Positions 1 through 14,622 of a DNA stretch of 64,000 bases are shown here, piece by piece (positions within the stretch are counted from its first letter, which is position 1; every line of letters begins with the position of its first letter). A model generated the notes under the pieces. That model did not search any database. It was not told the origin of the DNA and saw only the letters and a list, made by a program, of their open reading frames with translations. The position numbers and the translations under genes are program-made. The stretch is from Maribacter sp. PR1 (GTDB taxonomy: Bacteria; Bacteroidota; Bacteroidia; Flavobacteriales; Flavobacteriaceae): NCBI RefSeq assembly GCF_028464145.1, contig NZ_JAQPCG010000010.1, positions 1-64,000 of the forward strand, written 5' to 3'.

Positions 1-152
1 GATATGGCAAGCTGTTAAAACAATTGGCCTATAATTCAGAAGGGTGGGATGGTACCTATCAAGGGCAACCCATGCCCGCTTCGGATTACTGGTTTCGCTT
101 TGTTTACGACCAAGATCAGGTTTATACTGGGCACTTCACCTTAAAACGCTAA
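1..152 (+). CDS. C-terminal end of a T9SS type B exported protein (partial)
   Basis: The window opens inside a gene whose last 49 codons read in frame from base 3 to a TAA at 150-152. The tail has the pattern of the gliding-motility-associated (CHU_C, type B) sorting domain of the type 9 secretion system: a W-D-G-T-Y motif, then a Q-P-M-P-A-S-D-Y-W segment, and the terminal G-H-F-T-L-K-R. Proteins with this tail are exported across the outer membrane of Bacteroidota by T9SS, and many are large adhesins or repeat proteins. The body of the protein lies outside the window, so its function cannot be stated. It lies 78 bases upstream of the pilin-like operon on the same strand and could be co-transcribed with it. 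Confidence 0.85.
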   Translation, partial: YGKLLKQLAYNSEGWDGTYQGQPMPASDYWFRFVYDQDQVYTGHFTLKR

Positions 153-230: not shown

Positions 231-947
231 ATGAAACTAAAACTATTTTTGCTAGTGACAACGTTATGTTTTATGTCCTGTTCGCCCTTAAAAAAATGGC
301 AGAATGTAGAGAGTAAAACTGCGGGTTTAGGAGCCATTGGCGAAGCCACAGATGACCTATTCACCAAAGGATTCCGGAAAGTGGGAGAACCCAAACTCAG
401 CACACCTATTTCTGTGCATATACATTCGGTTCCCTTTACCAAATCCTCTTATTCAAAATATAAAAAGTATAAAGAACATTTGGGAGAGGAAGTAAATGTC
501 CAATTTAATGATAGTTTGGAATCTGCCCCACGCTTCTTTCAATTACGCATCACGGATATTGTACGGCTCAAACAGGATTTGAACCGGGAAATGAACCAGG
601 TCATGCTCGATTATCTTGAGGACGATCCAGGTTTGGAATTGTTGACGGAAATCTCCTTGGTTTCAGATACACCCCAGGAATCTATTCTGACCAAAGCTAC
701 CCAAGCACAGCTAATTCAAAAAGGGGATAGGGTATACCTTGAAGTAAGGAATAATGGTACGTTCATTCAGTTGGAAACCAGTATCATGGAAATTTTCGAC
801 TATGAAACGGCAGGGTTCTGTTGGCAATTGAATCAGCGAAGTCGACCTGAAATTTCCACCATCTTGGTAAATGGACAATCCTGTCCGAAAGGGACAGAGA
901 AAAAGGCCAAAAAACTGGATGTTTCCTTTGACTATTTAAAATTATAA
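231..947 (+). CDS. predicted lipoprotein, first gene of the pilin-like operon
   Basis: This 238-residue protein starts with a lipoprotein signal: a short basic N-terminus, a hydrophobic run and a lipobox-like F-M-S-C with the cysteine at residue 17. The rest is soluble and mixed in composition, and I recognise no family. It is followed after one base by another lipoprotein gene and then by pilus-type genes on the same strand. By position it could be an envelope anchor or pilotin-like accessory of that machine, but this is inference from context only. The start is chosen because it gives the signal peptide directly. Confidence 0.75.
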   Translation: MKLKLFLLVTTLCFMSCSPLKKWQNVESKTAGLGAIGEATDDLFTKGFRKVGEPKLSTPISVHIHSVPFTKSSYSKYKKYKEHLGEEVNVQFNDSLESAPRFFQLRITDIVRLKQDLNREMNQVMLDYLEDDPGLELLTEISLVSDTPQESILTKATQAQLIQKGDRVYLEVRNNGTFIQLETSIMEIFDYETAGFCWQLNQRSRPEISTILVNGQSCPKGTEKKAKKLDVSFDYLKL

Positions 948-948
948 T

Positions 949-1341
949 ATGAGACCATTTTTGTCCCTAATACTTCTTATAGGAATCATTTTCTTAAGTA
1001 GTTGCGAAGAGCTTTTGGAGGTAACGGATATTTCCGACCAAGAATTAAATTTATTGGCCCCTTCCGATAGCGTTGTGGTAACACAGAATGAAGTACGTTT
1101 CAGTTGGAACGAGGTTTTTGAGGCTAATAGCTATCATGTGCAAGTGGCCCAACCCAATTTTGAGAATGCTGTGCAAGTAGTAATCGATACCCTAGTGGTG
1201 GTAGACAGTACTTATTTGGGTTCAAGCTTTGTAAAACCCTTATCCGATAGTAGTTACGAGTGGCGTGTAAAGGCGATGAATAGTGATTTTGAAACTGAAT
1301 ATAAGACGCATGCCTTTTGGGTGGAAAGCACTAAAAACTAA
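949..1341 (+). CDS. small lipoprotein with a fibronectin-III-like domain
   Basis: This 130-residue protein has a lipoprotein signal with lipobox L-S-S-C (Cys19). The mature part looks like a single FN3-type beta sandwich: an L-L-A-P-S-D-S-V segment, an R-F-S-W-N-E-V strand, a Y-H-V-Q-V-A strand, and a late Y-E-W-R-V-K-A strand, all typical of Bacteroidota FN3-like lipoproteins. It starts one base after the previous stop and ends six bases before the next gene, so it belongs to the same operon. A role as a surface or periplasmic binding module of the pilin-like system is inferred from position alone. Confidence 0.75.
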   Translation: MRPFLSLILLIGIIFLSSCEELLEVTDISDQELNLLAPSDSVVVTQNEVRFSWNEVFEANSYHVQVAQPNFENAVQVVIDTLVVVDSTYLGSSFVKPLSDSSYEWRVKAMNSDFETEYKTHAFWVESTKN

Positions 1342-1347
1342 ATCAGG

Positions 1348-1815
1348 GTGAAGAAACAACATCGGACATACTTGCTATTGATTCTCGTCATAGGCATATG
1401 GGGCATTATCGGGTTTCGTTTGGTCAAGGCCATAAACCCTTCCAATGATTTGGAAAACACCGCTATGGATGTTCAAAAGTTCGTTCCTACTCAAATTAAA
1501 GAGCGCAAGAAATTTGATATTGTCGCCAATTATAGAGACCCTTTTTTAGGAACCTTTGAAACTCCAAAGTCAAAACCCAAGGTAAAAGCCATTAAAAAGG
1601 AGACCCCTCAAAAACCAAAGAAGAATATTGGCTATAAAGGTTTTATTTCAGGTGCTGACGCTAAAAACAGCATTTTCTTTGTCATCATAGACGGCACCCA
1701 ACACATGATGGAGATAAACGGGACCGCGCAAGAGGTAAAATTGCTTCAAGGTTCCAAGGATTATATACGGGTTCGTTACAATGGTATTACGGAAAAGGTA
1801 CTCTTGAGCGAATGA
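1348..1815 (+). CDS. PilP/GspC-like inner-membrane protein
   Basis: This 155-residue protein starts with GTG, which leaves a six-base gap after the previous gene. It has one N-terminal membrane helix (about residues 8-26), a charged linker with an R-D-P-F motif (63-66) like that in PilP proteins, a Lys/Pro-rich stretch, and a C-terminal small beta domain (about 92-155) with the layout of the PilP/GspC homology region. In type II secretion and type IV pilus systems these proteins link the inner-membrane platform to the outer-membrane secretin. The match is structural and weak at residue level, so an alternative small periplasmic beta-domain protein is possible. It overlaps the next gene by four bases. 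Confidence 0.6.
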   Translation: MKKQHRTYLLLILVIGIWGIIGFRLVKAINPSNDLENTAMDVQKFVPTQIKERKKFDIVANYRDPFLGTFETPKSKPKVKAIKKETPQKPKKNIGYKGFISGADAKNSIFFVIIDGTQHMMEINGTAQEVKLLQGSKDYIRVRYNGITEKVLLSE

Positions 1816-3092
1816 TGGTTTTTAGGAAAATACAGGCAGGGGCTTTGCAGTTCGTACTGTTCATTGGTGCGATAGTAGCCCTCCTATTATTATCCTTTTT
1901 ACTGCTCACCTATACCCAAAAACATTTTGAAAAGAAATCCGGTATCCTGGTCGAAGTACTGCAAGGAACGGATTACGGAATTAAAGCTTCCTTGACCAAT
2001 ACCGAGCAATCAGGCAAGGAATTATCCATTCAAAAACTAGGAGATTTGCCCATTGAAATCCGGGTGGAAAAAGGATTTTGGGGGCTTTTGGAAAAAAGAA
2101 CGGTTACCTCCTCCCATAAAAATACAACCTATACCAAATATGGATTGGTAGGAGGTAAGGATACCGAAGAGATACCTGCGCTGTATGTCAGCGACCATCA
2201 AAGACCGGTGGTACTGGCGGGAAACACAAAAATTACAGGTACGGCCTATTTGCCCAAACAAGGCTTGAAAATGGGCAATATAGGTGGAAACTCATATCCG
2301 TACCCACGGTTGTTGTATGGGAACAGTATTCCCAGCAAGGAAAAATTACCGGAGCTTTCGGGGGAATTTAAAGCTCGCTTACGGGAATTCAGTAACCCGA
2401 ATTACCGTCCTAATGGTATCCTTTTACAGGCCTTGCCAAGAGAGGGAATAAAAAACTCGTTTCAGGAGGAGACAAAAGTTTTTAAGAGCGGAAGTATTAC
2501 ACTGGAAAATATCGCCCTGACGGGTAACTTGATTATCGTCGCCGATAAAAAAATCACCGTGAGAAATACCGTCCAGTTGAGGGATGTTGTGCTATTGGCA
2601 CCTGAAATCATCATAGAGGATAGGGTTACCGGAAATTTTCAGGCGATTGCCACAGAAAAAATTGAAGTGGGACAGGGTTGTCAATTATTTTATCCTACGG
2701 TATTGGTGGTGGACAAATCCAATAAACGGTCAAACCAAAACACATCGGACCCTTCAAAAAATAGATCGCTGTTTGTAGACAAGTACACATTTATTAAGGG
2801 ATTTCTGATGTTTATGGAAGAAATCGAAGAAAAGCAATATTTCCCACAGGTAAAGGTGGAAACAAATGCCATTATCGAAGGGGAAATCTTTTGCTCACAA
2901 AACTTGGAATTGAAGGGAACTGTAAATGGGATGGTAACCACCGATGGTTTCATGGCCTTGGAAAATGGAAATATTTATCAGAACCATATTTACGGGGGCA
3001 TTATAAACAGTACGCAACTCTCTCCACATTACGTGGGTATTCCCTTGGAATCGAGGATCGGTAATAAAAAACTGATGCAATGGCTTTATTAA
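1812..3092 (+). CDS. GspK/PilX-like prepilin N-terminus fused to a beta-helix-like body
   Basis: The 426-residue protein begins with a short basic leader, K-I-Q-A at residues 6-9, then a long hydrophobic helix (about 10-34). This resembles a class III prepilin signal cleaved after Ala9. The residue at mature position +5 is Phe, not Glu; absence of Glu5 is typical of GspK-type minor pseudopilins. From about residue 130 on there are repeated short hydrophobic strands with turns, such as the runs around 240-300 and 370-420, suggesting a right-handed beta-helix or bactofilin-like fold. It overlaps both neighbours (4 and 13 bases) in the pilin operon. I know no named protein of this architecture; the GspK analogy is inference. 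Confidence 0.6.
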   Translation: MMVFRKIQAGALQFVLFIGAIVALLLLSFLLLTYTQKHFEKKSGILVEVLQGTDYGIKASLTNTEQSGKELSIQKLGDLPIEIRVEKGFWGLLEKRTVTSSHKNTTYTKYGLVGGKDTEEIPALYVSDHQRPVVLAGNTKITGTAYLPKQGLKMGNIGGNSYPYPRLLYGNSIPSKEKLPELSGEFKARLREFSNPNYRPNGILLQALPREGIKNSFQEETKVFKSGSITLENIALTGNLIIVADKKITVRNTVQLRDVVLLAPEIIIEDRVTGNFQAIATEKIEVGQGCQLFYPTVLVVDKSNKRSNQNTSDPSKNRSLFVDKYTFIKGFLMFMEEIEEKQYFPQVKVETNAIIEGEIFCSQNLELKGTVNGMVTTDGFMALENGNIYQNHIYGGIINSTQLSPHYVGIPLESRIGNKKLMQWLY

Positions 3093-3415
3093 AGAAAATA
3101 AAGGCATCCTCGTTGATGGAAACCTTGGTAGCCACGGTTTTGATTGTTATCATTTTCATGGTTTCAAGTATGGTATTGAACAATATCGTACATGAAAATA
3201 GGAGGTCCAACACCCAGAGGATAGAAAACTACTTGGGCCATTTGCACTATGAATGGAGCAATGGAGCTATTTCCGTTCCCCATGAAGAGCGCTTTATGGA
3301 TTGGGACATATCCATGGCCAATAAATCGGAAGGTCGGAAATCATTATTGGAAATAGAGGCTGTTCAGGAATCTACGGGAAAACGTTTGACTAAAACCATC
3401 ATCCATGCGGAATAA
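3080..3415 (+). CDS. type II/IV pseudopilin (minor, small)
   Basis: This 111-residue protein has a prepilin signature: basic leader ending K-I-K-A (residues 6-9), then S-S-L-M-E-T-L, giving Glu at mature position +5, then a roughly 20-residue hydrophobic helix and a short soluble head. Such proteins are processed by a prepilin peptidase and assembled into a pilus or pseudopilus in the periplasm. Alanine replaces the usual glycine before the cleavage site. The gene overlaps its neighbours by 13 and 11 bases, so translation is probably coupled. The length suggests a minor pseudopilin of the GspI/GspJ kind, but the exact subunit type cannot be assigned. Confidence 0.75.
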   Translation: MALLKKIKASSLMETLVATVLIVIIFMVSSMVLNNIVHENRRSNTQRIENYLGHLHYEWSNGAISVPHEERFMDWDISMANKSEGRKSLLEIEAVQESTGKRLTKTIIHAE

Positions 3416-3881
3416 GTCGGACTTAAAAATAAAGGCATTTTCCCTTCAGGAGATGATGGTCGTTCTGATTATAACAACGGTAATCGTTGGAATGGCCTTT
3501 GCAGTGCTGAACCTTGTGCAAAAACAAATGAACGGGATAGAACAGATATATCGTGTAAAGAACGATGTAAACGGATTACGACAAACCCTATGGATGGACT
3601 TCACCAAGTATACCTCTATCTATCTTGATCAAAAAAAGGGAGCCCTATATTTCAGCAATGCGAACGGGGAACGCACCTATTTCTTGGAGAACCAAACCAT
3701 TTCCAATGGAGACATTCTTGTGTTGGAATATGATTCCGTCACCTTTTATTTTGAGAACCGAGAAGTTTCCAATGGTGAAATAGATGCCATATCGATTGAA
3801 AGTAGTAAAGAAACTGGAGGAGCGAATATATTCGTTTTTAAGGAAAACACCCCGGAAACCTACATGAACCTTGTACCATGA
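3405..3881 (+). CDS. type II/IV pseudopilin
   Basis: This 158-residue protein has the prepilin N-terminal motif: a leader ending K-I-K-A (residues 8-11), then F-S-L-Q-E-M-M-V-V-L with Glu at mature +5, followed by the hydrophobic assembly helix and a soluble domain of about 115 residues rich in beta strands. It resembles the N-terminal methylation/cleavage family found in type II secretion and type IV pili. Alanine at -1 is the same variant seen in the two preceding genes. It overlaps the upstream gene by 11 bases and the downstream GspF-like gene by four bases (ATGA). GspJ- or GspH-like is the likeliest subtype, but this is not certain. Confidence 0.8.
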   Translation: MRNKSDLKIKAFSLQEMMVVLIITTVIVGMAFAVLNLVQKQMNGIEQIYRVKNDVNGLRQTLWMDFTKYTSIYLDQKKGALYFSNANGERTYFLENQTISNGDILVLEYDSVTFYFENREVSNGEIDAISIESSKETGGANIFVFKENTPETYMNLVP

Positions 3882-5011
3882 GCGGATTTAAACTAGAACA
3901 TACTATTACGACCCCTAAGGAAACCGAACAAAAGGATTGGCTTCAGGAGCTGCTCCAAAAGGAAGTGTCCTTTGGAAAGCTGTTTGGCAACAAACGAAAG
4001 GAAGACTTTTACTCGGAATTGGCGGTATTGCTCAAAGCGGGAATCCAGTTGAAAGATGCCATTACCCTGATTCAAGGGAGTCAAAAAAAAGAAAAGTACA
4101 TCGGCTTTTTTGAAGGAATGTCGAATTCCTTGATAGCCGGAAATAGCTTCCATGAAGTTCTCGAGCATATGAACGAGTTCACAGAGTATGAATATCATTC
4201 CATAAGAATAGGGGAGGAGACAGGCACCCTTCCCCGTATTGTGGAGGAATTGGGACAGTTCTATCAGCGTAAGAACGAACAGCGAAGGAATTTGCTAAAT
4301 GCATTGACGTATCCACTCATCATATTATGCACCGCTATTTTGGTTGTGGTCTTTATGTTGCGCATGGTGGTACCCATGTTCGAGGATATTTTTAAGCAGA
4401 ATGGCGTGGAATTGCCCGGGATTACCAAAATGATCATTAGTGCTTCCAATTTCATTAGGGATTATGGTTGGACCTTACCCGTAACGATACTCCTTCTTTT
4501 CGTATTGGGAAAAGTAAATTCAAAAAAGGATTGGTATAGGACAGGTAAAGACCGTATCATGAAGCGAATACCCTATTTAGGGTCCTTCATTACAACGGTG
4601 CACTTGGCCCAGTTCACCCAGGCTGTGGAGCTATTGACATCCTCCAAAGTTCCTATGCTAAATAGCATGCAACTGGTCAATAAAATGATTAGTTTTCAAC
4701 CTTTGAATCAGGCATTGACCCAGGTGGAGGAAAATATCCTAAAGGGAAAGAGCCTCCATGAGAGCATGGCCAAAAACCCAATTTTCGGCCCCAAAATGGT
4801 CTCTTTGGTCAAGGTGGCCGAGGAAACCAACCAAACCGAATATATTTTCAAAAGACTGAGTGATCAGTATGCTTTAGAGGTACAGCAAAAGTCAAAACTC
4901 CTCTCCACCTTGATGGAACCCTTAATAATTGTGGTCATTGGAATTTTTGTGGGGGTGATCTTAGTTTCTATGTACCTACCTATGTTCAAGTTGAGTAGTG
5001 TGGTGGGGTGA
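3878..5011 (+). CDS. GspF/PilC family platform protein
   Basis: The 377-residue protein has the family layout: an N-terminal cytoplasmic stretch, a first T2SF helical domain (about residues 40-150), a membrane pair around 140-210, a second T2SF domain (about 235-340) and a C-terminal membrane helix (about 345-370). Motifs such as F-Y-S-E-L-A-V-L-L-K-A-G-I and the repeated H-E-V-L/H-E-S-M segments are characteristic. GspF/PilC is the inner-membrane platform on which the ATPase drives pilus or pseudopilus assembly. It is the last gene of the overlapping operon. The ATPase, secretin and prepilin peptidase are not in the window and would be to the left or elsewhere. Confidence 0.9.
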   Translation: MSGFKLEHTITTPKETEQKDWLQELLQKEVSFGKLFGNKRKEDFYSELAVLLKAGIQLKDAITLIQGSQKKEKYIGFFEGMSNSLIAGNSFHEVLEHMNEFTEYEYHSIRIGEETGTLPRIVEELGQFYQRKNEQRRNLLNALTYPLIILCTAILVVVFMLRMVVPMFEDIFKQNGVELPGITKMIISASNFIRDYGWTLPVTILLLFVLGKVNSKKDWYRTGKDRIMKRIPYLGSFITTVHLAQFTQAVELLTSSKVPMLNSMQLVNKMISFQPLNQALTQVEENILKGKSLHESMAKNPIFGPKMVSLVKVAEETNQTEYIFKRLSDQYALEVQQKSKLLSTLMEPLIIVVIGIFVGVILVSMYLPMFKLSSVVG

Positions 5012-5621: not shown

Positions 5622-6833
5622 TCACCATAACAATACTTCTACAGCCTCATCCAATACTTCAATGCCAAACTCGCGAACATACGCTTTTGTGGTCAGCACA
5701 CTTTTATGGCCAAGTGTCTCCCCGATTACATCAATGCCGATACCCTTCTCACGTAGGCACATAGCAAAACTATGACGTGCAACATAGCTAGTGACATTTT
5801 TGGCTATACCTGCTTTCTTAGCGAGTATTTTTAAACTTTTATTATAATGCCCGAGTGTTTTGTGTTTCCGGTTCTCGATTTGTATTGGTGTCATGCCTTC
5901 ATATAACAGAATAGGGAAGACATAGTTTGTATCTGTCCTGTTCTGATTGTAGAAATTCAAGATTTCTTTAACTGGAGGCAAAATCTTTATGGAAAAATTA
6001 CCTTGAGTTTTAGCCCGTGCGTAAGTGATTCGTTTTTTTGAAATATCGGACCATTTTAGTCGCATCATGTCGGCAAAGTTCATTCCTCTGGTATAAAAAC
6101 TAAATAAAAAATAGTTCTTGGCATGGATCAGCTGGATGTCTTCCTTGCAATCCACATTTTTGAAAGATTCGACTTCCGATATAGTTAAGGCGTGCTTGAT
6201 CCGTTTGCCGCGAAGCTTGGATATTTTGTATTTATGGAAAGGATATAGGTTTTGCTTAATTAAGTCTCTACGAATCGCCAAGTTAAAAATCGTCCGTATA
6301 CTTCTCATGCGCACAGAGATACCTCCATTTGAACCGCCTCTGCTCCTTAGAAAGACTTCATACTTATCCAAGAACGTAGTATTGATTTCACGCATATATA
6401 ATACGGGTCTGTTATGAAAGATTTTTAAAGAGTTTATAGTATCTCTATTTGTTCGGGCGTAACCCATTCTGCCGGATAATTCTAAATCCCTAACGACCGA
6501 ATTCCAAAATTCGAACAAATTGATTTTACTTCTTTTTGAACCAAATCGAAAACGGTTTTCAAATTCATTCAGGGTAAAATCAATATCGTCTATTTCAAAT
6601 TCAGAAATGATATTCCTCGCTTTGATTTTAATGGTGTCCAACAAACGATTGTTCTGCATCGAATTAGGATGTCTGGTTTTAAAACAATGTTCCTTTTCAT
6701 CCCAAAATATTTTTTTGACCAAAAGTCCAGTTGCAATAACTTTTTTCTGTCTATCTTTCAGTATTTGTAAAACAATAGAATGTTTGTCCTCAGCGTTTGA
6801 TTTGTTTTTCAATTTTAATTTAATACTTACCAT
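5622..6833 (-). CDS. tyrosine recombinase / phage-type integrase
   Basis: With the start at 6833 the protein has 403 residues, typical of Bacteroidota integrases with an arm-binding domain (about 1-90), a SAM-like core-binding domain (about 110-215) and a C-terminal catalytic domain. Catalytic residues can be seen: Arg249 in the F-Y-T-R-G-M segment, Lys275, the A-R-H-S-F-A box (Arg353, His354), the L-G-H box (374-376) and the nucleophile Tyr385. The HxxR histidine position is Tyr, as in many Bacteroidota members. The frame stays open to 6974, but the extra 47 residues are aromatic-rich and unlike the family, so the ATG at 6833 is preferred. A tRNA 3' fragment lies 150 bases upstream, fitting an integrated element that uses a tRNA gene. 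Confidence 0.9.
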   Translation of the reverse strand: MVSIKLKLKNKSNAEDKHSIVLQILKDRQKKVIATGLLVKKIFWDEKEHCFKTRHPNSMQNNRLLDTIKIKARNIISEFEIDDIDFTLNEFENRFRFGSKRSKINLFEFWNSVVRDLELSGRMGYARTNRDTINSLKIFHNRPVLYMREINTTFLDKYEVFLRSRGGSNGGISVRMRSIRTIFNLAIRRDLIKQNLYPFHKYKISKLRGKRIKHALTISEVESFKNVDCKEDIQLIHAKNYFLFSFYTRGMNFADMMRLKWSDISKKRITYARAKTQGNFSIKILPPVKEILNFYNQNRTDTNYVFPILLYEGMTPIQIENRKHKTLGHYNKSLKILAKKAGIAKNVTSYVARHSFAMCLREKGIGIDVIGETLGHKSVLTTKAYVREFGIEVLDEAVEVLLW

Positions 6834-6845
6834 GCTTTTCTCTTT

Positions 6846-6984
6846 AGGGGTGAAACATAGGTGAAACAAATTCCACCTTTTTTTGAAAACGCATGAAAGC
6901 AAGTAAAAATAAAAACCCAATAAATACAAGGGTTTCCAGAAATTGAAGAAAAATGAAAGTAAATGAAAACACAAATATTCGCGC
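6846..6984. other. possible recombinase arm-site region
   Basis: Between the integrase start and the tRNA fragment lie repeated GTGAAACA units (twice within 20 bases near 6850), several TGAAA repeats and an AAACCC...GGGTTT inverted repeat (6913-6918 with 6930-6935). Clustered short repeats beside the attachment core are what arm-type binding sites of tyrosine recombinases look like. This is inference from position and pattern only. Confidence 0.3.
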
Positions 6985-7188: not shown

Positions 7189-8568
7189 TTAGCCTTGGCC
7201 TATAATTACTTGAAGACCTTCTTTGCTTTCTTCCAATGATTTGGCATCGGAAGCATTGACTTTAGTTGCCCATAAATAAACTCTTTTAAGTCCTTCCATC
7301 TTGCCTATATCTGATAGACAATCATTCGTAACTTCCGTGCCGTATAGATTTAGGGCTTCTAGATGTTTTAGATTCGATATGGCTTTAACTCCTTTGTCAG
7401 ATATTTTAGTGTTTTCTAGTTGTAATCTTGTCAAGTTCTCAAACTTAGCAATTATTAAAAGTCCTTCGTCAGATATATTAGTTTTTCCCAACGATAGCCA
7501 CGTTATATGTTTCGCAGCAGGTTCTAGACTTTTTAGGAGTTCATTGGTCAATTCCTTTCCCGAATATTTTACATCCAATAGTGGGTTTTTACCCCCTAAG
7601 ACGTTAACGGTAAAACCCTTTTCTTCCAAAGCTTCTAACTGTATACTATCCATTGGTGCTATACTGACCATTTCATAATATGGTCTTGGACTGGTATCTA
7701 GATTATATTTTCGTATTAAAGCTGGTTTGATATCTTCCGCTACATTTACGTCTACTACTAATTTATCAAAAGATGCCCCTTGTTCTATCCACCATTCTAT
7801 TATTTTGATTTCATCATAGGTCAAAGGGTTACCAACTGGTGGCATAAACTTTAAATTATTATTCGGAAGGGTTATACGTCTAAATAACTCACTTTCTTGA
7901 GCGTTATTTGCCAATAATACCGATTCGCCATCACCCCCTGCTAACAAAGAATCTTTGAAAGCCATATTTAAACCTCCACGTTTCACTTTATTATTATGGC
8001 ATGCAAAACACTTTTCTTGAAAAATAGGCTTTACTAAATCATTGTATACAATAACTGAATCTGCCGTGGAGAGATCTACGGCTCTTTCTTTTTCACCCAA
8101 CACCATATTTCTTATTCCTTCAGGTGCATACTCAAATAAATATGCTTCGCCGTGTGTCAGATTTCCACCCAAATGTCCTTCGAAAGTAAGGATTGCAATT
8201 AGAAGAATATTTACGCAATGATGGATAATATTAGGATATTTTTTAGGAGTTTTCTTTATCCACCACCCTATGAAAGCTAATACTACTATTGCTATACCGA
8301 TCCAACGATGTAGAAATAGATCGTCCTCAAAATACAAACCGGACTCACCTAACCACCACCCACAGAAAGCTGCCAAAGCACCACCTAATCCTCCCAAAAG
8401 CCAGGTGTAGCTAATTAAGTTGCTCAATTTCTCGTTTTTACGGAATCTCTGGTACCATTCCATTAGAATGCCTAAAAGCAAAAATCCTATAGGGAGATGT
8501 ACAAAAAGTGGATGAAACCGACCAACAAAATTGGTGAAATCAAATACTAGGAATAGATTCATCCTCAA
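7189..8568 (-). CDS. DUF2231 membrane domain - cytochrome c - leucine-rich repeat fusion
   Basis: This 459-residue protein has three parts. The first 135 residues hold about four membrane helices of the DUF2231 type, starting with the F-H-P-L-F-V-H-L-P-I-G-F motif. A planctomycete-type cytochrome c domain follows (about 172-275) with the haem motif C-F-A-C-H (187-191) and a likely axial Met in an M-P-P segment. The C-terminus (about 340-455) holds leucine-rich repeats of the L-x-x-L-x-L-x-x-T-x-I-x-D-x-G kind. It is the last gene of a four-gene operon, eight bases after the preceding stop. Such proteins are probably membrane-bound electron carriers, but substrates are unknown. Confidence 0.85.
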   Translation of the reverse strand: MRMNLFLVFDFTNFVGRFHPLFVHLPIGFLLLGILMEWYQRFRKNEKLSNLISYTWLLGGLGGALAAFCGWWLGESGLYFEDDLFLHRWIGIAIVVLAFIGWWIKKTPKKYPNIIHHCVNILLIAILTFEGHLGGNLTHGEAYLFEYAPEGIRNMVLGEKERAVDLSTADSVIVYNDLVKPIFQEKCFACHNNKVKRGGLNMAFKDSLLAGGDGESVLLANNAQESELFRRITLPNNNLKFMPPVGNPLTYDEIKIIEWWIEQGASFDKLVVDVNVAEDIKPALIRKYNLDTSPRPYYEMVSIAPMDSIQLEALEEKGFTVNVLGGKNPLLDVKYSGKELTNELLKSLEPAAKHITWLSLGKTNISDEGLLIIAKFENLTRLQLENTKISDKGVKAISNLKHLEALNLYGTEVTNDCLSDIGKMEGLKRVYLWATKVNASDAKSLEESKEGLQVIIGQG

Positions 8569-8576
8569 TGGTGTTC

Positions 8577-9629
8577 TTAAATACGGTTTAATTTAATAGG
8601 ATAGGTTTTTCCGGATGCCCATTGTGGAACATAAAGATTCTCATCTTTATCTACGAGAACATCATGAGGATTTCTAAATGTGTTACCATCGAAAACTGGA
8701 GGTATTAATTTTCCATCTGTATATTCTGGAGTGCTTCCACCTGGTAATGAAATTACTTTATTGTCCCTATCTAGAACAGCAAGCATACCATCCCACGAAT
8801 CCCAAGTTTTGGTTACGATAACTGCGAAATAGATATTATCTCCATGGATTACGGGTCTACAAATAGAACATCCTGGGAGAGAAATTGTTTCTATGTGTTT
8901 TCCATCTAGCGAAAAACGTTTAAATTCCTGACTCGCACGAGATGTAATTAACAGAGTAGGTTTGGCACTATCTCTCGTATCTAAAGTTATACCGTGACAG
9001 CAATTAAATTGATCATTCTTGTTCCCACTTCCTCCAAAATGTCCTAGATATTTTCCATTGGCATTGTAGTGAATAATGAAGTTTTTACCATAACCATCAG
9101 CAACAAAGAAATCACCATTGGACATTATTGCCGTCTCAGTTGGTTTGAACTCCTCATTTTTAGCATACCCATTAATCTCTTTTGGTCGATTAAGCGTCAT
9201 AATAATTTTGCCGTCCAATGTGGTTTTATGTACTTGGTGTGTTTCTGGATCGGTAATAAATAAAAACTGGTCACTACCCTCACCTGCTATTGATAATCCA
9301 TGGGCTCCTGGAAATTGGGTGCCCCAAGAAGAAAGTACCTTTCCTGACTTGTTATAGATTATAACATTATTGTTATCAGTTCCTGTGGTGGTCATAAAAA
9401 TACGGCCTTGGGTGTCTAGTACCATTTCATGGCAGTCATTTACTGGAACTTTAGAAGGGTCTTGAACGCCCCACTCTTTATCCACGTAATATTTAAAGTC
9501 TCCATGGCCAACCACTTCTTTCATGTTTCTTCGATTTATAATCCCAAATGTATAATTGGGTAAAACAGCTCCTGCCGTTGCGGCAATAGCCGTTTTTTTA
9601 ATAAAATTTCTTCTTTTTTTACTGTACAT
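8577..9629 (-). CDS. Tat-exported NHL/6-bladed beta-propeller protein
   Basis: The 350-residue protein begins with a twin-arginine type signal (K-K-R-R-N-F-I-K-K followed by an alanine-rich hydrophobic run). The mature part is made of repeated blade-like segments such as D-T-Q-G-R-I-F-M, M-S-N-G-D-F-F-V-A-D-G-Y-G and a late F-R-N-P-H-D-V-L-V-D-K-D-E-N-L-Y-V, typical of NHL or 6-bladed propellers related to peptidylglycine monooxygenase/lyase propellers. It acts in the periplasm. No catalytic residues can be assigned. It lies between the DUF1501 gene (12 bases) and the cytochrome-LRR gene (8 bases), so it is part of that operon. Confidence 0.8.
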   Translation of the reverse strand: MYSKKRRNFIKKTAIAATAGAVLPNYTFGIINRRNMKEVVGHGDFKYYVDKEWGVQDPSKVPVNDCHEMVLDTQGRIFMTTTGTDNNNVIIYNKSGKVLSSWGTQFPGAHGLSIAGEGSDQFLFITDPETHQVHKTTLDGKIIMTLNRPKEINGYAKNEEFKPTETAIMSNGDFFVADGYGKNFIIHYNANGKYLGHFGGSGNKNDQFNCCHGITLDTRDSAKPTLLITSRASQEFKRFSLDGKHIETISLPGCSICRPVIHGDNIYFAVIVTKTWDSWDGMLAVLDRDNKVISLPGGSTPEYTDGKLIPPVFDGNTFRNPHDVLVDKDENLYVPQWASGKTYPIKLNRI

Positions 9630-14510: not shown

Positions 14511-14585
14511 GGGATATTAGCTCAGTTGGTTTAGAGCGCTGCCTTGACAGGGCAGAGGTCACTGGTTCGAATCCAGTATATCCCA
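14511..14585 (+). tRNA. tRNA-Val (anticodon GAC)
   Basis: A complete 75-base cloverleaf is present: acceptor GGGATAT / ATATCCC with discriminator A, D arm with GCTCAGTTGG, anticodon stem CTGCC/GGCAG with loop TTGACAG (anticodon GAC), variable loop AGGTC and T arm ACTGG-TTCGAAT-CCAGT. CCA is not fully encoded. It lies on the opposite strand to murF. Confidence 0.95.
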
Positions 14586-14622
14586 CAACCTTTTAAATGA
14601 AAGACTACCTTAAAGTAATTAT

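Follow-up and report, generated by a model that had tools for sequence, protein, structure and literature searches.

Putative type II secretion systems (T2SS) have been described in Cytophaga hutchinsonii and in Flavobacterium johnsoniae (Fjoh_0611-0622), among others, with the same list of parts that we meet here (F, C, L, M, D, E, G, O and minor pseudopilins) and with a divergence from the proteobacterial T2SS prototype that was remarked on in that report (PMC5553014); in print, the T2SS of Bacteroidetes cluster with type IVa pili (T4aP), outside the T2SS clade (PMC6668835). Flavobacterium psychrophilum CC-ST10 carries a T2S cluster (FPSM_02418-02439) in which two opposite T2S loci lie within ~35 kb, accompanied by exported proteins (two with ABC toxin domains), an adhesin and an OmpH-type chaperone; the locus numbers of the ABC-toxin-like proteins, the adhesin and the chaperone fall between the two T2S loci, and a dedicated translocation role was already suggested by the authors (PMC5808330). 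An island of this kind is, then, already in print for one species, and the view of the first-pass annotation that pilin-type systems in flavobacteria are poorly described gives way before these published clusters (PMC5553014, PMC5808330, PMC6668835). Here we compare with them a 64,000-nucleotide stretch of Maribacter sp. PR1 (referred to hereafter as the window; the left end of contig C2 in a draft of 23 contigs), which opens with a seven-gene operon for lipoproteins, pilins and a platform protein. This operon is one half (half B) of a machine that resembles type II secretion systems and descends from type IV pili, and across the family Flavobacteriaceae the machine is paired with giant RHS proteins. 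We take PMC5808330 to be Duchaud et al, 2018, PMC5553014 to be Wang et al, 2017, and PMC3482391, used below, to be Zhang et al, 2012.

The operon and the second half of its machine

The left end of the window encodes the following features (lengths in amino acids, aa; evidence in brackets).

3..152, + strand: C-terminal end of a large protein with a type IX secretion system (T9SS) type-B (CHU_C-like) tail, family F11 (frame-3 translation)
231..947, + strand: lip1 lipoprotein, 238 aa (lipobox, alignment; 22/34 loci)
949..1341, + strand: lip2 lipoprotein, FN3/Ig-like domain by weak matches (33/34 loci)
1348..1815, + strand: GspC/PilP-like inner membrane protein (C), 155 aa, GTG start (gene order and shape)
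1812..3092, + strand: K-type pilin (K), 426 aa (prepilin-like N-terminus, beta-solenoid-like body, C-terminal WLY)
3080..3415, + strand: I-type minor pilin, 111 aa (ComGE model E 7e-5, below cut-off)
3405..3881, + strand: J-type minor pilin, 158 aa (N_methyl/ComGD/GspH models, below cut-off)
3878..5011, + strand: GspF/PilC inner membrane platform protein, 377 aa (PF00482 E 1e-46)

All seven open reading frames (ORFs) from lip1 onward are present on the + strand at the coordinates first annotated, and from 1812 onward neighbours overlap by 4, 13, 11 and 4 bases. Using the platform protein as query, we recovered 34 loci from other genomes; the six-gene order from lip2 to GspF is kept in 33 of them, so that the operon is conserved and chance is excluded, and lip1 stands ahead of these genes in 22. 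The 34th locus (L038) has its platform gene in fragments only and was excluded from the operon counts; L035 and L036 seem to be duplicates of a single sequence, and L004, L061 and L062 were excluded from the analysis. The overlapping operon at 231..5011 that the first-pass annotation had proposed is thereby borne out by coordinates and conserved order alike, with the correction that its "eight proteins" are seven. By its matches the last gene is certainly GspF/PilC (TIGR02120 E 5e-70, under the equivalog cut-off); the prepilin N-termini of the small proteins give weak pilin matches, under the family cut-offs.

Half A lies on contig C4 of the same genome, as a row of genes for a response regulator, the major pilin (G), a 161-aa membrane protein (putative prepilin peptidase, O), an ATPase (E), a secretin (D), and proteins of 402 and 173 aa (candidates for L and M). 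The ATPase matches PF00437 at E 6e-129, with the PilB and GspE models both under the equivalog cut-off, and the 730-aa secretin matches PF00263 at E 4e-35, with the PilQ, GspD and MshL models scoring alike and below cut-off. The 402-aa protein has a C-terminal PilN domain (E 3e-6) and is followed by the 173-aa protein, which has no match; the 161-aa membrane protein, also without a Pfam match, shows the motifs Dx[KR]xR and GxGD in 5/5 and 13/14 relatives (own protein included). With secretin, ATPase, major pilin, peptidase-like and PilN-containing genes in one genome, the proposal of a type II secretion/type IV pilus-like machine was right as to type; the ATPase and secretin, whose absence from the genome had been named as the finding that would overturn it, both lie on contig C4, and the window itself carries one half only.

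A search of the genome with PF00437 gave one match above cut-off and no second (PilT-type) ATPase, and we therefore read the genome as having no PilT (other PF00437 matches in the family, among those listed, score ~20-26 bits and were put aside as P-loop noise). The parts of half A taken together with this absence therefore make the machine type II-like. It shares with T2SS the secretin, ATPase, platform, and major and tip pseudopilins, as well as the lack of a retraction ATPase; it shares with T4aP a PilQ-, PilB- and PilC-like core, and differs from them in having no PilT/PilU. The protein at the L position, a long protein with a terminal PilN domain, is presumably built as GspL is, unlike its counterpart in the type IVa pilus.

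The left end of C4 breaks inside an F11 gene, and the window opens with the end of an F11-like protein: the translation of 3..152 supplies the last 49 codons and resembles the F11 C-termini that stand directly before lip1 in relatives (CHU_C is present in both F11 relatives scanned). In the relative G183 the order RHS gene, small gene, F15, F11, lip1, lip2, C equals that of C4 and C2 combined, and we infer that reversed C4 abuts C2; the F11 gene, of which the left end of C4 cuts off the N-terminal portion, is the last gene of a cargo island between the halves. Among relatives with E and K on one contig (34 genomes), the halves are divergent and 14-52 kb apart in 19 and lie 4-7 kb apart in the remaining 15. 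Four loci (L021, L024, L028, L033) hold a full half B and half A in one fetched stretch, with all genes of L024 in the same direction. The comparison of gene order that had been suggested thus finds the two machine halves adjacent or close.

Pairing of the machine with RHS proteins

We scored the machine in 199 Flavobacteriaceae genomes (198 genera), at thresholds of E<1e-100 for the ATPase and E<=1e-5 for the K family. The ATPase occurs in 43 of the 199 and K in 43, and the two sets are identical; G121 and G128 have two ATPases and two K each. The best PF00437 match of G053 (26 bits) is over the cut-off but spans 63 positions only and was not scored as an assembly ATPase. As a side observation, G185, a genome with one K match, has a second GspE-type ATPase at C15:240-1376 (E 2e-141).

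Every machine genome (43/43) encodes an RHS core, vs 30/156 genomes without the machine (Fisher 3e-24), and the associated domain DUF6443 follows the same division, 38/43 vs 3/156 (Fisher 9e-32). Genome size is insufficient as a confounder, the pairing persisting among genomes of at least 4.0 Mb (RHS core in 27/27 with the machine vs 12/32 without; DUF6443 in 24/27 vs 1/32). The genes are also linked: in 36 of the 43 genomes, against 7.9 predicted by random placement, an RHS core lies no more than 40 kb from E or K, and the linked-genome count never rose above 19 in 200,000 placement simulations. It falls between E and K in 19 of the 34 genomes with both on one contig, and where a genome has a single RHS core, E or K is never more than 29 kb away from it (8/8, own genome included). 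In a second sample, of 296 genomes across the phylum, 11 genomes encode the ATPase: 10 Flavobacteriaceae and a further member of the class (G448). RHS cores are present in each of them, and DUF6443 is found in 10, the exception being our own genome. Four of the 11 (G000, G109, G111, G134) also belong to the family sample.

The proteins concerned were examined in an island sample of 14, made up of 13 of the 19 genomes with distant halves on one contig together with our own. The giant RHS protein (family F0) is present in 14/14 islands, alongside YD-type proteins of family F8 (in 8) or F12 (in 6; G050 has both, G196 neither), and the other recurrent families are F7 (in 10), the OmpH-like chaperone F9 (in 7) and F11 (in 6). 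Two giant YD/RHS-type proteins dominate our own island, which also encodes LamG, malectin and other exported proteins. Four consecutive F7 proteins (L003 2710-7146, - strand) have in common a C-terminal stretch that resembles the end of a phage tail fibre. Three of them were scanned, with a LamG domain found in one and a malectin domain in another; the four are possible further cargo.

Of 20 F0 members we used 16, from the 14 genomes, excluding four fragments. An RHS core is present in 16/16 and DUF6443 in 12/16, and each of the 12 taken as full length has a hydrophobic, signal-peptide-like N-terminus (judged on hydrophobicity only, with no predictor). Pairwise comparison of the 15 proteins with a located core (L043, with the core pattern absent, was excluded) shows trunks, ~430 residues through the core motif, that are alike in 101/105 pairs and tails that are alike in 0/105. 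An ORF of 100-250 aa lies at most 39 bases to one side or the other of the F0 end in 14/16 cases, and none of these ORFs belongs to a family found at more than one locus; in our own genome this gene (C4:3934-4464) encodes a lipoprotein-like protein and overlaps the F0 end with its start. Sequence signs of possible toxicity are an AHH and an HNH nuclease match, in one member each, and an HExxH motif in our own protein. The YD partner protein of G109 (L041 9375-13523) has an AXH match at its end, together with weak matches to Hint and intein models, presumably as in self-processing polymorphic toxins.

An RHS trunk with a variable tail and a small next gene is the polymorphic toxin/immunity pattern (PMC3482391), and by their sequences the F0 proteins show it. 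They resemble the signal-peptide-bearing RHS polymorphic toxins of that survey in all three features and in the Hint-like domain of one partner protein; the "T2SS/Sec-dependent" label used there denotes a signal peptide only, with no signature neighbour gene in its Table 1 (PMC3482391), and, unlike those toxins, the F0 genes are linked to a defined outer-membrane machine. The family-wide pairing of a type II-like machine with RHS proteins is what is new here, and we did not find it in print in the open-licence literature searched. The F. psychrophilum report concerns one clonal complex and, in the sections that treat the cluster, is silent on K and lip2 and on co-occurrence and tail variability (PMC5808330). 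That on C. hutchinsonii concerns a single locus with a proposed role in cellulose use and draws no RHS link in the sections on the system; a text count in the search listing gives zero occurrences of the word "rhs" (PMC5553014).

On the machine parts, their synteny, the co-occurrence and linkage with RHS genes and the variability of tails and neighbouring genes, all of them observed, we lean towards a reading in which the machine exports the linked RHS toxin-like proteins across the outer membrane. Several findings weigh against it. Seven of the 43 genomes are unlinked within 40 kb, five having no RHS gene on the E/K contig and two having it at 250 kb (G076) and 114 kb (G165); RHS cores occur in 30 machine-less Flavobacteriaceae genomes; and, in the phylum sample, DUF6443 is encoded by 19 genomes from other families in the class that lack the ATPase at E<=1e-50 and by three Flavobacteriaceae without it (G252, G279, G432), with 20 DUF6443 genomes of other classes left out of the analysis. 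RHS proteins are therefore not generally dependent on the machine, a universal dependence being ruled out by the phylum sample, and in other bacteria they exit otherwise or stay inside. Our statistics, moreover, count genera as independent, our own RHS protein falls below the DUF6443 threshold, and experimental work on C. hutchinsonii ties the system there to cellulose use (PMC5553014).

The last of these points is also an argument for a general type II-like system that serves hydrolases and surface proteins, as proposed for C. hutchinsonii, at a locus that is a hot spot for variable genes. The t2s mutants of that organism are defective in cellulose use (PMC5553014), and our own island holds LamG, malectin and other exported proteins as well as F11, whose relatives bear a T9SS tail. 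We nevertheless consider this explanation unlikely: a hot spot alone leaves unexplained both the RHS cores in every machine genome and the near-absence of DUF6443 from machine-less genomes of the family.

Export of the RHS proteins by T9SS or by a type VI secretion system (T6SS), the machine merely sharing an antagonism island with them, would fit the RHS genes found without the machine in other Bacteroidia. The genome does encode T9SS (SprA is present, in agreement with its first annotation as that of a T9SS bacterium), and for the TANFOR polymorphic toxins of Bacteroidetes export by T9SS is suspected (PMC7073777). No T9SS tail model, however, matches any of the 16 F0 or 15 F8/F12 proteins. 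T6SS was rejected as the exporter, with VipB/TssC matched in 0/43 machine genomes by a search in which E. coli alone among the controls scored and sensitivity to subtype iii is unchecked. We regard either route as very improbable.

Lipoproteins, pilins and a possible export route

The first lipoprotein, lip1, has conserved cysteines at C197 and C218 and a structure model of pLDDT 83. The top five PDB matches in a fold search with lip1 (window 231-947) are of gasdermin type (best E 8e-4, TM 0.3); we set this likeness aside as too weak for use and perhaps due to chance, odd as it is beside toxin-like genes. In lip2 the lipid cysteine opens an acidic motif, C-E-[ED]-[LI]-[LI]-E...DIS, in 30/33 sequences (L032, with a wrongly placed start, was scored as a miss), and length indicates one, two and three domains in 19, 11 and 3 of the 33. 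A profile search against PDB sequences aligns the FN3 chain 1k85 (E 6e-4) with the second domain of longer relatives, and in Pfam Ig_Rha78A_N scores below cut-off. Surface exposure of lip2 would be a guess: the motif is acidic but differs from SDDFE, the surface-export signal of F. johnsoniae (PMC5080379). The GspC/PilP-like protein combines a hydrophobic N-terminal segment, an invariant DPFL motif and a small conserved C-terminal region, and fits GspC in position and shape, without a usable match, to the GspC HR domain or otherwise, in Pfam or in the PDB-sequence profile search; such searches with C, lip2 and K returned FN3-type and chance matches only.

The pilins divide by the residue at +5. 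Glu5 is found in the I-type pilin (33/33 parsed N-termini, with one more not parsed), in the J-type pilin (31/31) and in the major pilin G, while K has Phe, Leu or Tyr in place of Glu in 30/30 members, all of which end in WLY (WLYY twice). No counterpart of GspH was recognised among the pilins. The residue before a prepilin cleavage site is usually Gly; here, before the presumed site, it is Ala in 28/30 K, 26/33 parsed I, 30/31 J and 12/14 G. By its position and its missing Glu5 we take K to resemble the cap pseudopilin GspK.

The AlphaFold2 model of K (mean pLDDT 90.3) has a 60-residue helix followed by a beta body, and the body gives a weak Bactofilin match in Pfam for 23/30 members. A fold search returns ComZ as the best PDB match (E 7e-3, TM 0.23), followed by beta-helix ice-binding proteins, all weak, so that the body is predicted to be beta-solenoid-like and nearest, weakly, to ComZ. 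The 426-residue protein had been annotated with a prepilin-like N-terminus, and the long pilin-type N-terminal helix, predicted with high confidence ahead of the beta body, agrees; the earlier failure to name a counterpart for the K body or either lipoprotein stands for lip1, which has no usable relative, and falls for lip2 and the K body, for which there are weak structural relatives (FN3/Ig-like and beta-solenoid-like).

ComZ of Thermus thermophilus (6QVI) is, like K, a large pilin with a beta-solenoid body, and it has been proposed to belong to a DNA receptor at the tip of the DNA-uptake pilus (PMC6561018). Together with the clustering of Bacteroidetes systems with T4aP (PMC6668835), this likeness speaks for a filament like the type IV pilus, used in adhesion or DNA uptake and carrying K as its tip receptor. 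We judge such a filament quite improbable: the K-ComZ match is weak in fold score and is accompanied by no sequence match to K in the PDB search, there is no PilT-like ATPase, no DNA-uptake gene was recognised among the scanned locus genes (competence genes were not searched genome-wide), and the RHS linkage would go unexplained.

If the machine does export the RHS proteins, as we prefer to think, these would enter the periplasm via Sec, by the hydrophobic N-termini that we observe, and could be assisted there by the OmpH/Skp-like chaperone that the island encodes; to judge from known RHS structures, the shell would fold around the variable C-terminal tail in this compartment. Recognition may fall to the C protein and the lipoproteins, after which a short G pseudopilus, with an I/J/K tip capped by the solenoid pilin K, would push the proteins through the secretin. 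Because there is no PilT-type ATPase, the filament would lack powered retraction, and may work as a piston.

Genes around the operon and meaning for the family

Just after the operon lies a tyrosine recombinase (window 5622-6974, - strand; Phage_int_SAM_5, Phage_integrase and Arm-DNA-bind_5). It has no tRNA beside it, the sole tRNA found in the window being Val at 14511-14586. Further on, a - strand ORF at 8577-9629 has a twin-arginine-like N-terminus (RRNFIKKTA) and directly precedes an ORF at 7189-8568 with a CxxCH haem-type motif. Beside half A on C4 (L003 15277-19515, - strand) is a protein of 1412 residues that matches nSTAND/NACHT, HEAT and DUF4062 weakly, in each case below cut-off, presumably of a kind seen in defence proteins.

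The machine itself is ordinary in kind and known; what makes this variant worth testing is the family-wide RHS pairing, together with a tip pilin of solenoid-like build and a second lipoprotein that is conserved. As a tentative and more doubtful extension of the export reading, the sequences would allow a Flavobacteriaceae machine dedicated to RHS polymorphic toxins, that is, a secretin system derived from pili and without retraction, bearing a solenoid pilin at its tip and an FN3 lipoprotein on the surface, which might export folded shells for interbacterial fights and have co-evolved with DUF6443 RHS proteins family-wide. To our knowledge, no cargo of the type II-like systems of Bacteroidetes has been settled, and we know of no outer-membrane route assigned to the RHS toxins of bacteria that have no known injector. 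The near-exclusive pairing of machine and RHS proteins in one family makes both questions addressable by one gene deletion, and, if the proposal is true, the Flavobacteriaceae would possess a filament system of the type IV kind that has specialised in giant polymorphic proteins.

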